Positions 3,032-49,758 of a DNA stretch of 64,000 nt are shown piece by piece (the stretch's first letter is position 1; the number at the start of each line of letters is the position of its first letter). The stretch is from an uncultured Pseudomonadales bacterium (GTDB lineage: Bacteria; Pseudomonadota; Gammaproteobacteria; Pseudomonadales; Azotimanducaceae): the NCBI GenBank assembly GCA_937775265.1, contig CALKBV010000011.1:62001-126000 (forward strand), given 5' to 3'. Made by a program: the position numbers and the translations under genes. A model generated the notes under the pieces. It was not told the origin of the DNA, searched no databases, and saw nothing but the letters and a program-made list of their open reading frames with translations.

Positions 3032-4537
3032 TCAGGGCGACCGGTCCAATTTCCGATATCCAATTGCCTCAACTAAGTGAGACGTCGCTATGCGGTTTAT
3101 TCCTGATAAATCCGCGATAGTGCGTGCCACTTTTAGGATCTTGAAGTAGCCCCGGGCGGATATTCCAAGTTGGTTTACAGCGTCATCAAGGATTCGAACA
3201 TCGCCTTTTGATAGCTTACAGTGCCTGGCGATCTGCTGGTTATTCAGGTTGCTGTTCAGCATTCCCTGTCGCTCCAGCATCAACGTTCTTGTATTGGCTA
3301 TGGTTGCCTTCAACTCACAGTTTTTTGGCTCAACCGTGGTCTTATCGCTCAAGGTGCCGGTTGGCAACGGTGGCACCTCGATGTGCAGGTCAATCCGATC
3401 CATTAGTGGCCCGGATAGACGAGACCTGTAGCGATGTATCTGCTGTGCGGAACAGTCGCATTGCCTCGTATCGTCGCCGAAGTAACCACATGGACAAGGG
3501 TTCATTGCGGCAATCAACTGAAAATGTGCTGGATACCTGACCTGCTGTGCGGCTCGGCTGATCCAGATCTCGCCAGATTCCAGAGGCTCTCTTAGCACTT
3601 CGAGCACTTGCCGGGAATACTCAGGAACTTCATCGAGAAACAGTACGCCATTATGGGCAAGAGAGATCTCGCCCGGTTTCGGCGGATTGCTGCCGCCAAC
3701 CATAGCTACCGCACTTGCGGTGTGATGGGGCCTGCGAAATGGCCGCTGTCTCCATTTTTTATACTCGAATAGCTGTCGTGAAACGGATGCAATGGACGCG
3801 ACCTGCAAGGATTCTTCCAGGGTCATCTGAGGAATCAGCGAGGGAAGCCTGCTGGCGAGCATAGTCTTCCCGGTACCGGGGGGGCCGACCATCAGCAGAT
3901 TGTGACCACCAGTGGCGGCAATGGTAAGTGCTCGCTTCGCCGAAGCCTGGCCTTTCACATCTGCCAATGAGGCGACTGCACTATCCTCTGGATCAGGCTG
4001 CCATTGCCTCGGCGTTGCAAGTGGTTGGCCCGTGGCCAGATGCGCCAGCACCTCATGAAGGCTTGAAGCAAGGTAAAGATCCTCTGATTCAGCCAAGGCT
4101 GCCTCAAGCTCACAAGCTTTCGGTACTACAAGCCTCCGCCTCTGGCCTTTGTTGCGAAGCGCGGTGGGCAATATCCCGCGGACTGCGCGAAGTGCTCCTG
4201 TCAGCGATAGTTCCCCGAGGAACTCATAAGAGTCTATGCATTCCGGTGGGATCTGGTTGGACGCAGCGAGAATTGATACCGCTATTGCAAGGTCATATCG
4301 GCCGGTGGACTTGGGTAGGTCTGCAGGCGCAAGATTTACAGTTATCCTTCTTGAGGGGTATTCGAAGCCGCTGGTCGTGATTGCAGCCTTTACCCGATCT
4401 TTGCTTTCCCTCACCGCGGTTTCGGCGAGTCCAACAATCAGCGTTTTGGGTAAACCGGGAGATACATCTGCTTCAACGGTAACCAGTGGGGCATCAATGC
4501 CTAGTTCTGCGCTCGAGAAAGTGGTCGCGACTGTCAT
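3032..4537 (-). CDS. comM: ComM/YifB-family AAA+ ATPase (Mg-chelatase-like)
   Basis: A 501-residue hexameric AAA+ helicase. In Acinetobacter and Vibrio, ComM promotes branch migration during natural transformation. The N-terminal Lon-protease-like domain (about residues 1-175) is followed by the ATPase domain with Walker A GPPGTGKT near residue 218, Walker B GVLFLDEVPEY near residue 298, and a Cys cluster CPCGYFGDDTRQCDC characteristic of this family. The C-terminal Mg-chelatase domain ends at residue 501. An in-frame TTG lies one codon upstream of the chosen ATG at 4537. The gene is often found near glnK, as here. The window does not show other competence genes. Confidence 0.93.
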   Translation of the reverse strand: MTVATTFSSAELGIDAPLVTVEADVSPGLPKTLIVGLAETAVRESKDRVKAAITTSGFEYPSRRITVNLAPADLPKSTGRYDLAIAVSILAASNQIPPECIDSYEFLGELSLTGALRAVRGILPTALRNKGQRRRLVVPKACELEAALAESEDLYLASSLHEVLAHLATGQPLATPRQWQPDPEDSAVASLADVKGQASAKRALTIAATGGHNLLMVGPPGTGKTMLASRLPSLIPQMTLEESLQVASIASVSRQLFEYKKWRQRPFRRPHHTASAVAMVGGSNPPKPGEISLAHNGVLFLDEVPEYSRQVLEVLREPLESGEIWISRAAQQVRYPAHFQLIAAMNPCPCGYFGDDTRQCDCSAQQIHRYRSRLSGPLMDRIDLHIEVPPLPTGTLSDKTTVEPKNCELKATIANTRTLMLERQGMLNSNLNNQQIARHCKLSKGDVRILDDAVNQLGISARGYFKILKVARTIADLSGINRIATSHLVEAIGYRKLDRSP

Positions 4538-4738
4538 CAATCAATTTTACCCGCGCGCTTCTGCCCAGCACTGAGTCATATACTGCTAGTACTGTAAGCA
4601 GATGGCCATTAATGCCGCACGAACTTGGTGCAGAGTCCGACTTCAATGGTCTCCCTCTTGCACCACGCTAGTGCGGGGCTATGTCGGACCTGTCTCAAAA
4701 AGCTATAACTTATTGTTTATTATCATTTTTCTATAAGT

Positions 4739-4753
4739 TGGCACAGTCAATGC
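4739..4753 (+). promoter_or_regulatory. Sigma-54 (RpoN) -24/-12 promoter for glnK
   Basis: The sequence TGGCACAGTCAATGC has the invariant GG (4740-4741) and GC (4752-4753) separated by exactly ten bases and a perfect TGGCAC -24 element. glnK genes of proteobacteria are typically transcribed by RpoN under NtrC during nitrogen limitation, so motif and gene agree. It would give a leader of about 240 nt before glnK. Confidence 0.7.
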
Positions 4754-4888
4754 TCTGTATACAACCGTTCGAGATGATTTACACTATTAGATCAGCGGTG
4801 TTGGACCCCTTCGATTCGATGGAATTGGTAATACCGGTAATGACTAACGCGAACTTGTGCGATTCAAGTTAATGACCCGGAGTGCCAT

Positions 4889-4972
4889 ATGTACGACTAT
4901 TCGCTAGATTTCAAAGGCTTCTGGGCCATGAATGGACTATCATCGGCTCTTGAAATTCGGTACATTGCCTAA
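4889..4972 (+). CDS. Possible 27-residue small ORF in the glnK leader
   Basis: ATG at 4889 opens 27 codons (begins MYDYSLDFKGFW, ends EIRYIA) and closes with TAA at 4970-4972. GGAG at 4879-4882 sits about 6 nt upstream of the ATG, a workable ribosome-binding site. It lies between the sigma-54 promoter and glnK, 32 bp before the glnK start, so it would be co-transcribed. It could be a small protein, a leader peptide, or chance; there is no family I recognise. Confidence 0.25.
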   Translation: MYDYSLDFKGFWAMNGLSSALEIRYIA

Positions 4973-4983
4973 GTTCTAGGTGA

Positions 4984-5343
<360 letters not shown>

Positions 5344-13464: not shown

Positions 13465-13565
13465 ACAGCCATGAGCGGTAAACAGCCATGAGCGTTAGAC
13501 AGCCATGAGCGTTAGACGGCATGAAAGGTAAACAGCCATGAGCGTTAAGCAGACATGAGCGCAAA
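13465..13565 (+). repeat. 17-bp tandem repeat with chained ATGA micro-ORFs before algZ
   Basis: Six units with consensus ACAGCCATGAGCGTTAG. ATG triplets fall at 13471, 13488, 13505, 13521, 13538 and 13555, so spacing is 17, 17, 16, 17, 17. In units 1, 2, 4 and 5 the ATG opens a six-codon frame (for example MSVRQP) whose TGA overlaps the next ATG as ATGA. The last ATG is the algZ start. Unit 3 runs past unit 4 because of the 16-bp spacing and stops at TAA 13529-13531. Confidence 0.85.
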
Positions 13566-46362: not shown

Positions 46363-47598
46363 ATGAGTAGCCCCATAGAAGTAGTGCTTAGTGACGGGAA
46401 AGGTTCTATTTACGGCTACTGTGATGACAAGTTCCGCAGCGTGCTGGAGACCTTCGTTGCCAATTTTGAAGATCGCGAAGAACAAGGAGCGTCCGTTTGT
46501 TTCAATGTTGAAGGGGAGACTGTCGTTAATCTTTGGGGTGGTCGAATGCATCCCCGGCAGGAGTCAGAGTGGCAGGAAGACACCATGAGTGTTGTGCATT
46601 CGGTGACCAAGGCGGCTGTTTCAATTTGTGCGCATATACTTATCTGTGAAGGGAAACTCGATTTGCGGGCAAAGGTCGCAGATTACTGGCCGGAATTTGG
46701 CCAGCAGGGCAAGGAAGGTGTGACAGTTGCCATGATGCTCAATCATTCAGCGGGCCTTGCTGCTATCCGCGCGCCGATTAAGGAAGGCGGCTTTCTGGAC
46801 TGGGACTATATGGTGCAGCGGTTGGCGGAAGAAGCGCCATTCTGGAAGCCGGGCACTCGAAATGGCTATCACATGTCGACGTTTGGTTGGGCTGTTGGAG
46901 AGCTTGTTAGACGCGCCTCTGGTCTTTCGTTGGGAGACTATTTCCGAACGCGTGTCGCGGAGCCTTTGGGGTTGGATTTTCACATTGGCTTGCCTGAATC
47001 AGAACATCACCGCGTATCAAGAATGATGCGCTGGGCACCGAAAAAAGGGGATCCGGTTTCTCCGTACACAGTTGCGCTGCTGCAAAGTAAAGAGTCGTTG
47101 CAATACATTGCGCTACTCAACAACGGAAAATTTAAGACTGACGCCCCGGAAAGCTATCTCTGCCAGTACGGCGCAGGTGGAGGTATTGCCAATGGGAAGG
47201 GAATTGCGGGAATGTTCAATCCCTTTGCCAATGGCGGCGAAGGCTTTGTTGACAAGGTTGGCCTTGAACGTATGCAGGCTGCTTCCGTCGCTACCAATGA
47301 AGATGTGACGCTTGTGTCACCGACGAAATTTAGCCTGGGTTTCATGCTCAGTATGGATAACCGACATCGCGAAGCTGGTGCGCTCGAAACCATTATCATG
47401 GGCAAGCACGCATTTGGACATGCTGGCGCTGGTGGTAGCGTTGGTTTTGCCGATACTGAATGTCACCTTGGTTTTGGATACAGCATGAACAAGATGGGTG
47501 CGGGGATTTTGCTGAATGAAAGAGGGCAATCCCTGGTCGATGAAACCTATCGCTGTCTTGGTTATAGCACTAACGAACCGGGTTATTGGGTCAAGTAA
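46363..47598 (+). CDS. Family VIII esterase / beta-lactamase-like serine hydrolase
   Basis: A 411-residue enzyme of the class C beta-lactamase/EstB fold. The catalytic S-x-x-K is SVTK in HSVTKAAVSICAHI (about Ser84), and the catalytic Tyr is in NGYHMSTFGW (near 171). The C-terminal GHAGAGGSVGFAD contains the G-x-S-like third motif. Such esterases act on short acyl esters and lactones. No signal peptide is seen, so it is cytoplasmic. It sits 248 bp after the NMO/cupin pair on the same strand; in this context it could hydrolyse an ester produced by a Baeyer-Villiger-like or luciferase-like oxidation. Confidence 0.87.
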   Translation: MSSPIEVVLSDGKGSIYGYCDDKFRSVLETFVANFEDREEQGASVCFNVEGETVVNLWGGRMHPRQESEWQEDTMSVVHSVTKAAVSICAHILICEGKLDLRAKVADYWPEFGQQGKEGVTVAMMLNHSAGLAAIRAPIKEGGFLDWDYMVQRLAEEAPFWKPGTRNGYHMSTFGWAVGELVRRASGLSLGDYFRTRVAEPLGLDFHIGLPESEHHRVSRMMRWAPKKGDPVSPYTVALLQSKESLQYIALLNNGKFKTDAPESYLCQYGAGGGIANGKGIAGMFNPFANGGEGFVDKVGLERMQAASVATNEDVTLVSPTKFSLGFMLSMDNRHREAGALETIIMGKHAFGHAGAGGSVGFADTECHLGFGYSMNKMGAGILLNERGQSLVDETYRCLGYSTNEPGYWVK

Positions 47599-47614: not shown

Positions 47615-48595
47615 TCAGAGTTCCAGCCCACGAATAGGTAAACCGGCGGCTTCATAACACCGATCAACCACTGTCATCTGGGCAACAGCATCGCTGCCGT
47701 CAGTCCAAAGAGGTTCGTCCTTTTCGACCGCTGCGATGAAGGCATCCAGCTGATACGCATAGGTAGGCCTGCGATCAACGGTTTCGTGGCTTGTCTGCCC
47801 GCGCACGTTCAGGGTCAGAAGGTGACCCATCTGTGGTGCGATGACGTTGTCGACTCGCATTTCCCCCCTGCTTCCCTTAACCGTCACTTCTGCTCTAAAT
47901 GATGCTGATGCCCGCATATCGGCTGATGTGGTGATGGCGATGTTCCCGGCCTCCATTTTCGTTTTCAGAAACAGGTCAACCTGGGGTGGACCAACTTCAG
48001 CCGTCGCTGAAACGACCGTTGGTTCGGTACCAGCCAAATGCCGAACCCATGAAATGGGATAACAGCCTATATCCATCGTGACGCCCCCACCCAGATGGTA
48101 GTTCATTCGAATATCGTCCGGATCGGTCACTGGAATATGAAAGGCTGCATCAATGGATGCAATAGTACCGAGCTCTCCATTAGAGACAATTTCTTTCATT
48201 CGCGCGAACAAAGGGTGGTAGCGATAGTGGAATGCATCCATCAGCACCAGGCCCTGATCTTTAGCGACCCGATTCATTTCTCTCGCTTCGTCTGCGTTAC
48301 AGGCAAGGGACTTCTCGCAAAGGACATGTTTGCCTGCGTTCAAGGCGGCAATGGTCCACGGATGGTGGGCGGGGATATGGAGTGGATTGTACAGAGCATT
48401 GATTTTTTCATGGCCAACAACATCAAGGTAGCTGTCGCACACAGTTCCTATGTGGTGGGCTGCCGCAAAGGCGTTGGCCTTATCCCTGTCTCGTGCCGCA
48501 ATAACGGAAATATGAGCCAGAGGTTCATTCATGCACGGATAGATAAGAGCTGCAGGAGTTATGCGGGCCGCGCCCAGTACACCGAATCGAATCAT
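47615..48595 (-). CDS. Gfo/Idh/MocA-family oxidoreductase
   Basis: A 326-residue NAD(P)-dependent sugar or inositol dehydrogenase. The Rossmann motif is GVLGAARI (residues 5-12), the cofactor-binding EKSLACN replaces the more usual EKP, and the active-site His region is DAFHYRYHP. It converges with the esterase gene, 16 bp away, and diverges from the peptidase-like gene. The substrate is unknown; trans-dihydrodiol and 1,5-anhydrofructose dehydrogenases are among its relatives. Confidence 0.88.
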   Translation of the reverse strand: MIRFGVLGAARITPAALIYPCMNEPLAHISVIAARDRDKANAFAAAHHIGTVCDSYLDVVGHEKINALYNPLHIPAHHPWTIAALNAGKHVLCEKSLACNADEAREMNRVAKDQGLVLMDAFHYRYHPLFARMKEIVSNGELGTIASIDAAFHIPVTDPDDIRMNYHLGGGVTMDIGCYPISWVRHLAGTEPTVVSATAEVGPPQVDLFLKTKMEAGNIAITTSADMRASASFRAEVTVKGSRGEMRVDNVIAPQMGHLLTLNVRGQTSHETVDRRPTYAYQLDAFIAAVEKDEPLWTDGSDAVAQMTVVDRCYEAAGLPIRGLEL

Positions 48596-48613
48596 GTGTT
48601 TGTCTTCTGTTTA

Positions 48614-48741
48614 CTTGAGAACCGAGGTCACTAGTTTACGCCTACCTTGCGAACTGAGGTCACTAGTTTCCACGTACCTAGAGAGCTGAGATCACTAGTC
48701 TATAGGTACCTTGCGAAGTGAGCGCACTAGTGTAAGTTTAC
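48614..48741. repeat. Four exact-period 32-bp tandem repeats
   Basis: Units start at 48614, 48646, 48678 and 48710, always 32 bp apart. The shared core is GAGGTCACTAGT, with the palindrome ACTAGT in all four units. Units diverge mildly, so the array is not recent. It occupies nearly all of the 149-bp spacer between the Gfo/Idh/MocA gene and the peptidase-like gene. Confidence 0.9.
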
Positions 48742-48744
48742 GGG

Positions 48745-49758
48745 ATGTCAGAAACCTATATTGAAGAATCAAGGCTCGCTACCGCCGAGCTTTCACTTGG
48801 GTCACTGCTCCCGCCAGGAGCGTGGCGTCCAGCCTTAACGCCTGAAGTGCACCCCCGTCAGATTGGAGATGAGCTCTGGTCAAAGGCGTTCGATAAGGAT
48901 CAACTTGATGATCGGCCGCTCTACTGGCAACGGCTCATCCTATCTCAATATTTGAGACAGCTCGGTGCTGAATCCTCGGATTTGTTGGAGTTTGAGCTGG
49001 CAAGCCGCGGCATGCTGGGCAATCAGTTTTCAGGTGGTGCAACCTATCGTGTGCTGGTGACGGGGTTCGACCCGTTTCACCTGGACGATCACATAGAACA
49101 GGGGAATCCGTCCGGCGTGGTCGCACTCCAACATCAACACAAACAGATAGCGTTGGGTGTGGGAAGAGCTGAGATTCGTTCGATGATATTTCCGGTGCGT
49201 TATAAGGACTTTGATGAGTTTCTGGTTGAAAGAGTCCTTGAGACCTTCACTGATAAAGTGGACATGGTGATTACCGTCAGTATGGGTCGAACAGGCTTCG
49301 ACCTAGAGCGATTCCCTGGCAGGCGGCGATCGGTGTCGACACCGGATAATGCCAGGGAGGCAGGTGGTGGATCAGCAGAGAAACCCCTTGTACCGCCATA
49401 CCTTGAAGGGCCGGAATTTGTAGAATTTTCTTTACCCGCAGGTGAGATGAAAAAATGTATGGGTGATTTCCCGGTTAACGACAACAGATTGGTCACAACG
49501 CTGGAGCAGGGGGAGTATAAGGCAGTGAACCTGGCGGCGCTTGAGTCGAAAACTGCTGTCCTTGGGAGCGGGGGTGGATACCTGTCGAATGAGATTGGCT
49601 ACAGGGTGATTAGGCACATTCGGGAAAAAGACCGTGCTATACGCGGGGGGCACATTCACACCCCTCGGATGCAGGGTTATGATCGCGGTCTTGTTCAGAA
49701 AATAAGCAAACAGTGTGCTGGCCTGATTGAGGCGGCAATTCAGGTGCTTCCCAATTAG
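48745..49758 (+). CDS. Pyroglutamyl-peptidase I-like (C15) protein with Ser in place of the catalytic Cys
   Basis: A 337-residue protein whose residues 100-337 match C15 pyrrolidone-carboxyl peptidase: VLVTGFDPF, NPSG, then FPVRYKDFDEFL, a Glu188 in RTGFDLERF, the nucleophile region GSGGGYLSNEIGY and GGHIHTPRM with the catalytic His. In active enzymes the nucleophile loop is like FVCNHVMY; here Ser281 (codon TCG) replaces Cys. An extra N-terminal helical segment of about 100 residues is not typical. It could be an inactive binder, a serine version, or a different hydrolase. No export signal. Confidence 0.7.
   Translation: MSETYIEESRLATAELSLGSLLPPGAWRPALTPEVHPRQIGDELWSKAFDKDQLDDRPLYWQRLILSQYLRQLGAESSDLLEFELASRGMLGNQFSGGATYRVLVTGFDPFHLDDHIEQGNPSGVVALQHQHKQIALGVGRAEIRSMIFPVRYKDFDEFLVERVLETFTDKVDMVITVSMGRTGFDLERFPGRRRSVSTPDNAREAGGGSAEKPLVPPYLEGPEFVEFSLPAGEMKKCMGDFPVNDNRLVTTLEQGEYKAVNLAALESKTAVLGSGGGYLSNEIGYRVIRHIREKDRAIRGGHIHTPRMQGYDRGLVQKISKQCAGLIEAAIQVLPN

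Follow-up and report, generated by a model that had tools for sequence, protein, structure and literature searches.

Is an evenly spaced row of repeats between two divergent genes a set of regulatory binding sites, or a minisatellite that has grown upon a promoter? This question is raised by a 32-bp tandem array located in the 64,000-nucleotide stretch of DNA that we analysed (hereafter the window), from an uncultured marine bacterium, which the original prediction had interpreted as a helically phased array of binding sites.

Architecture of the array

The array comprises four units on the plus strand: unit 1, nearest the Gfo/Idh gene (48614..48645), unit 2 (48646..48677), unit 3 (48678..48709), and unit 4 (48710..48741), the last unit, which overlaps what is presumably the core promoter for the C15-like gene. 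They score 31.0, 31.3, 27.4, and 28.3 bits, respectively, against R1, a sequence-only model built on alignment A2 from 17 of the 19 units found in six genomes, with the first units of G010 and G014 omitted as degenerate. Together, the units fill 128 of the 149 bp separating the divergent Gfo/Idh/MocA and C15-like genes, and unit 4 is followed by GGG and then by the C15-like ATG at 48745. The span originally given, 48614-48741, and its end 3 bp before the C15-like start codon were therefore right. The description as an exact 4 × 32 bp repeat holds for the period, which contains no indels, but not for the units, which differ from one another at 5–11 of 32 positions; unit 3 differs from the fourth of the five units in G005 at just 2 of 32.

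TRF reported a period of 32 with 3.7 copies, 77% matches, 0 indels, and a score of 131. Across the window, lag 32 at this array gave the highest match count over 90 positions for any lag between 20 and 60 (69, with the runner-up of 53 at an array near 13.4 kb). The motif said to recur in every unit, GAGGTCACTAGT, is present without mismatch in the first two units but carries one mismatch in unit 3 and two in unit 4. This 12-mer, allowing up to 2 mismatches, occurs 5 times in the window against 2.9 expected, and is thus not rarer than chance; the spacing of its copies, rather than its frequency, is the non-random feature. As head-to-tail repeats within a promoter region, the units have the form by which promoter VNTRs are recognised.

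Genomic context and origin of the arrangement

The predicted flanks were likewise borne out. To the right lies the C15-like gene (48745..49758, plus strand; 337 aa), related to pyroglutamyl peptidases by a PF01470 match over residues 102-203 (E 9.3e-9) and by its relatives. To the left, the Gfo/Idh/MocA dehydrogenase gene (47615..48595, minus strand; 326 aa) matches PF01408, PF02894, and PF22725, and beyond it a serine beta-lactamase-fold hydrolase gene (46363..47598, plus strand) was assigned by PF00144 and synteny. An 18-bp spacer (48596..48613, minus strand) separates the array from the Gfo/Idh ATG. Its length is constant in all six array-bearing genomes, as is a TTTA (TAAA on the minus strand), which is a possible −10 element of the Gfo/Idh gene judging by its sequence and position.

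We searched for the C15-like protein in the window's own genome and in 57 surrounding ones, and recovered it in 19 of these 58. Six members of the genus (G000, G005, G001, G004, G010, and G014) carry the array together with the adjoining Gfo/Idh gene, which in reverse orientation separates the beta-lactamase-like and C15-like genes. The Gfo/Idh gene occupies this place only in the array-bearing subclade. In all five insertion-free congeners whose locus was found (G002, G009, G011, G013, and G016), the C15-like gene directly follows the beta-lactamase-like gene. G013 does encode a Gfo homologue (63% identity), at a different locus, where it directly follows another reading frame and has no array. 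Since the array and the Gfo/Idh gene are confined to the same subclade, the array appears with the insertion. The direction of change was presumably an insertion in this subclade rather than a loss in the other congeners. The insertion cut the C15-like gene off from its upstream neighbor, a separation that we infer forced the formation of a new promoter.

Several further features of these families were recorded. In the C15-like family, a serine within GGGYLSNE (near residues 277-287) is shared by all 13 aligned relatives, Nocardiopsis among them, at what we take to be the position of the catalytic cysteine of pyroglutamyl peptidase I. The best solved-structure match also has serine there, apparently as a Cys-to-Ser mutant. 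The G014 C15-like ORF (4001-5113) matches only to residue 297, beyond which its C-terminus is different and longer, and it lies 541 bp from the ACAD gene. At yet another locus, G009:C86:13587-14300, a Gfo/Idh homologue in two pieces, with internal TGA and TAA codons, is probably a pseudogene.

Unit number and spacing among relatives

A comparison across these six species of one genus indicates that unit number is variable and unit length is not. The ATG-to-ATG distances in G000, G005, G001, G004, G010, and G014 are 149, 181, 85, 117, 85, and 117 bp, each equal to 21 + 32n (18 bp, n units of 32 bp, and 3 bp), with n = 4, 5, 2, 3, 2, and 3. Unit number thus ranges from 2 to 5 in what is a between-species comparison. 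A highly variable unit length, which would have counted against the original prediction, was not observed: the unit is 32 bp in 6/6 genomes. The phased array in a divergent promoter region is accordingly upheld in the sense that its period has been kept without other indels across six species. Whole-unit gain or loss suffices to explain lengths of the form 32n; the additional point is that no other indel survived. Spacing is maintained even in G010 and G014, where the first units match the last-unit consensus at just 12 of 22 core positions. The C15-to-ACAD intergenic region, taken as a control, measures 175, 175, 147, 169, 150, and 541 bp in the same genome order and shows several small indels in its alignable part. 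Between G001 and G005, fourfold-site divergence is 0.09 for C15 against 0.25 for the neighboring Gfo gene, an inequality that suggests recombination at or near the array.

The last unit as a candidate leaderless promoter

Over the six genomes, the last unit is the best conserved of the array. Together with the following 3 bp, it shows 1–9 differences in 35 positions per genome pair, and fourfold-site divergence among the same genomes is 0.09–0.62 for C15 and 0.10–0.56 for Gfo. All last units end in GTGTAAGTTTAC, with GTGTAACTTTAC as the G010 variant, and the ATG-proximal TAAGTTTAC is conserved alongside. Within the unit, we recognise a putative −35-like hexamer, TTGCGA (48711..48716, plus strand), present in the six genomes as TTGCGA or TTGAGA/TTGAGT. 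At a distance of 16 bp on its 3′ side lies a putative −10-like hexamer, TAAGTT (48733..48738, plus strand; TAACTT in G010), at −12 to −7 of the ATG. The TAA of this hexamer is an in-frame stop at −12 in 6/6 genomes, so translation of the C15-like gene cannot begin further upstream. No obvious Shine–Dalgarno sequence precedes the ATG, the best candidate being a TAAG that overlaps the −10-like hexamer. A scan with the sigma-70 consensus returned no site above threshold at the array and did not pick up the −35-like hexamer, as the two hexamers match that consensus in only 7 of 12 positions.

In a published analysis, a TANNNT located about 12 bp ahead of the start codon is read as the mark of a leaderless gene, and genes of this type are listed in 15 of 239 gammaproteobacterial genomes (PMC3160421). 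TAnnnT is found at −12 to −7 in all six array genomes, each therefore combining a −10-like element some 12 bp ahead of the ATG with the lack of a clear Shine–Dalgarno sequence; in the window, it occurs in the same band before 2 of 29 genes and at 3.6% of all positions. The C15-like gene hence resembles the leaderless genes described there (PMC3160421) in its TAAGTT at −12 to −7 and its want of a clear Shine–Dalgarno sequence, but differs in that its start site is a predicted one. We predict that the last unit provides the C15-like core promoter, TTGmGA-N16-TAAGTT-N6-ATG, and these features hint at a leaderless or near-leaderless mRNA. The last unit is thus the clearly constrained one and looks like a core promoter, a point that the original prediction missed.

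Constraint and decay in the upstream units

Among the 13 upstream units, columns 1-22 (the core) have a variability of 0.255 against 0.463 for columns 23-32 (the linker), with a permutation p of 0.0038 and the best rank of all 32 rotations; leaving out the two degenerate units lowers p to 0.00045. This split was chosen post hoc, for which the rotation rank and a further test, in which columns agreeing with the last-unit consensus were less variable than the others (p 0.008), correct in part. Five positions (G4, G6, G11, T19, and G21) are invariant in 19/19 units. A conserved core with a freer linker, as expected of an operator array, is therefore present (p 0.0038), though weaker in decayed units. 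Such decay affects the upstream units of three of the six species (G004, G010, and G014). The penultimate units of G000 and G004 differ at 9 of 22 core positions, with fourfold sites changing more slowly (0.25-0.29), such that the upstream cores of G004 diverge faster than fourfold sites.

Neither dyad nor direct-repeat symmetry within the unit rose above a column-shuffle null; the best score, 5.8 bits, lay below the null mean of 6.5. The unit consequently carries no classical operator signature, and a palindromic or direct-repeat operator within it was rejected. With core constraint on one side and decay and lack of symmetry on the other, a function of the upstream units is plausible, and they stand as candidates only. 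The divergence between units had been read as maintained function, which agrees with the lower variability of the core but not with the decay in half of the species. The proposal of an array of binding sites similarly keeps its repeated core and freer linker, but finds no symmetry, no other copies, and no conserved unit number.

Searches for further copies

To the extent that the unit is a binding site, it appears to be a site of one locus. Searching 206 family genomes with R1 at E ≤ 0.01 under strict filters recovered the array locus in six, plus one marginal match in another genus (G132:C1:268-291; E 0.0057 for one genome), which contains TTGCGAACTGAGGTC exactly; about 1 such match is expected by chance over 206 genomes. 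R1 was built without the two degenerate first units, so its missing them says nothing. In 17 congeners, where R1 was scored against the 150 best candidates of each genome, the top off-locus match had E 0.03 over the 17 genomes. A pattern search for a second site gave 5 forward and 1 reverse hits, compared with 4 and 4 for a reversed-pattern control, and the 149-bp region used as a query had its next best match at E 0.77. The array unit matched no plasmid or phage record, the array region matched no Rfam entry, and no regulator gene or domain was found among the flanking proteins scanned. A regulon sharing the array site was thus rejected, as pattern, region, and R1 searches all returned nothing beyond chance and revealed no second site in the window's own genome. 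The absence of convincing off-locus copies means that the array is neither a dispersed element, which the original prediction had named as a possible refutation, nor part of a visible regulon. Our literature search likewise recovered no description of this array locus.

Tandem arrays as such are frequent in this genome, which the original prediction also missed. Over 400 kb on two other contigs, we counted roughly nine with a TRF score of at least 60 and no covering ORF longer than about 270 nt. The window itself holds a second array (13465-13561; 17 bp × 5.8, with ATGAGCG in the unit), and where it ends, the start codon of a histidine-kinase gene (PF06580) lies. This array has counterparts in G001 and G004 and longer-period repeats in G014, and no repeats were found upstream of the histidine-kinase gene in G009, G011, G013, and G016. 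That gene adjoins genes for argininosuccinate lyase and a LytTR response regulator. Some arrays of very large size, located for the most part within long ORFs, were also seen at G000:C6:39000-43500 and G000:C2:20766-22510, with units of 18/36/54 bp and 39 bp × 28.

Competing explanations

The explanation we favor, with about an even chance of being right, is that the array serves the divergent pair as a row of cis-regulatory sites at a single locus, grown from a new promoter. One subclade would have acquired the arrangement along with the Gfo/Idh gene, which would have split the beta-lactamase-like/C15-like pair and left the C15-like gene in need of its own promoter. The upstream cores would then be sites, repeated along the DNA, at which a DNA-binding protein or RNA polymerase itself docks. 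As the period is about three helical turns, these sites would share one face of the DNA, where bound proteins could contact each other and may touch polymerase at the last unit and, in the opposite direction, at the Gfo/Idh promoter. Duplication or loss of whole units would tune the number of sites between species.

The main rival, to which we allow a considerable but less than even probability, is a promoter minisatellite: 32 bp containing the C15 −35 element and spacer would have been duplicated by slippage or unequal crossing-over, with the last unit alone at work (perhaps along with the left edge for Gfo) and the upstream copies as decaying passengers. The number of tandem arrays in this genome fits such an origin, as does the 17-bp array that also abuts a start codon. 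A tendency of the subclade to duplicate DNA at start sites would yield such arrays without selection, and the commonness of arrays weakens any special reading of this one. The decayed upstream units of three species and lineage-specific sister units (units 1 and 2 of G004 differ at 4 positions) point the same way, and whole-unit gain and loss alone accounts for the 32n lengths. Passengers, however, would not be expected to vary less in their cores than in their linkers, nor to undergo only whole-unit indels in 6/6 genomes, even with degenerate units and beside an irregular control region; the array has also persisted through the divergence of six species.

It is improbable, in our estimate, that each unit is instead a weak polymerase site (TTGmGA-N16-TA) acting as a decoy, poised, or alternative promoter. 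Most units do have TTGmGA and TA at the right spacing (T24 in 18/19, A25 in 16/19), but T at the −7 position is restricted to the last units, bar one upstream unit. Furthermore, the strongest invariants (G11, T19, and G21, in 19/19 units) fall in the spacer, which sigma-70 does not read, and polymerases on adjacent units 32 bp apart would overlap, given the size of their footprints. We attach very little weight to the residual options, namely that the array acts at the RNA level, that it is a scar left by recombination or integration when the Gfo gene was inserted, or that it is an artefact of assembly. Co-occurrence with the Gfo insertion would suit a scar, but there is no plasmid or phage match and no dispersed copy; both flanking genes are transcribed away from the array, which has no Rfam match, and it recurs in six separate assemblies.

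Returning to the cis-regulatory reading, its most specific form is a rheostat, in which the insertion of a gene between two neighbors led to a new leaderless promoter whose 32-bp recognition unit was then multiplied. Related species would since have gained or lost full three-turn units and never parts of one, with both start codons kept in fixed phase to the array, and the strength of the two divergent promoters would be set by the number of units, acting through a binding protein. We consider this full version rather unlikely.

Relation to known systems and significance

Variable tandem repeats in promoters have been described before (PMC7364221, PMC3899988), and the array is of this general kind. 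The promoter VNTRs of nadA and hifA/hifB (reviewed in PMC3899988) and those of clbR-clbB (PMC7364221) likewise consist of tandem repeats of variable copy number that lie between genes or in a bidirectional promoter region, and at clbR-clbB a change between 5 and 20 copies altered clbR reporter output about 2-fold (PMC7364221). Their units, as described there, are 2–8 bp, near-identical, and variable between strains, whereas the present unit is 32 bp and diverged, and its variation is known between species only. In the SiaR–CRP region, adjacent nan and siaPT operons are also governed from one operator set, and a half-turn insertion uncoupled their regulation (PMC2946308); that region, as reported, has two different single operators for known proteins, unlike the 2–5 copies of one unit found here. 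The TAACTGA direct repeats of Beggiatoaceae similarly lie directly upstream of start codons in gammaproteobacteria and have AACTGA in common with our array, by chance or otherwise (PMC4679880). As that source presents them, they are short heptamers found at many loci, with 169 sets in a single genome (PMC4679880), in contrast to one locus per genome with a 32-bp period. What is unusual for promoter repeats is the length of the unit, the period of three helical turns, the change between species by whole units, and the predicted leaderless-type promoter within the last of them.

If the upstream units work, the genus would offer a natural series of 2, 2, 3, 3, 4, and 5 units, set in promoters that are otherwise orthologous, share a constant helical phase, and are tied to a single insertion event. 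With such a series one could readily test how divergent promoters are tuned by the number and phasing of their sites, and how a promoter forms after a gene insertion. If the last unit alone works, the locus would be an example of a minisatellite resembling an operator array.
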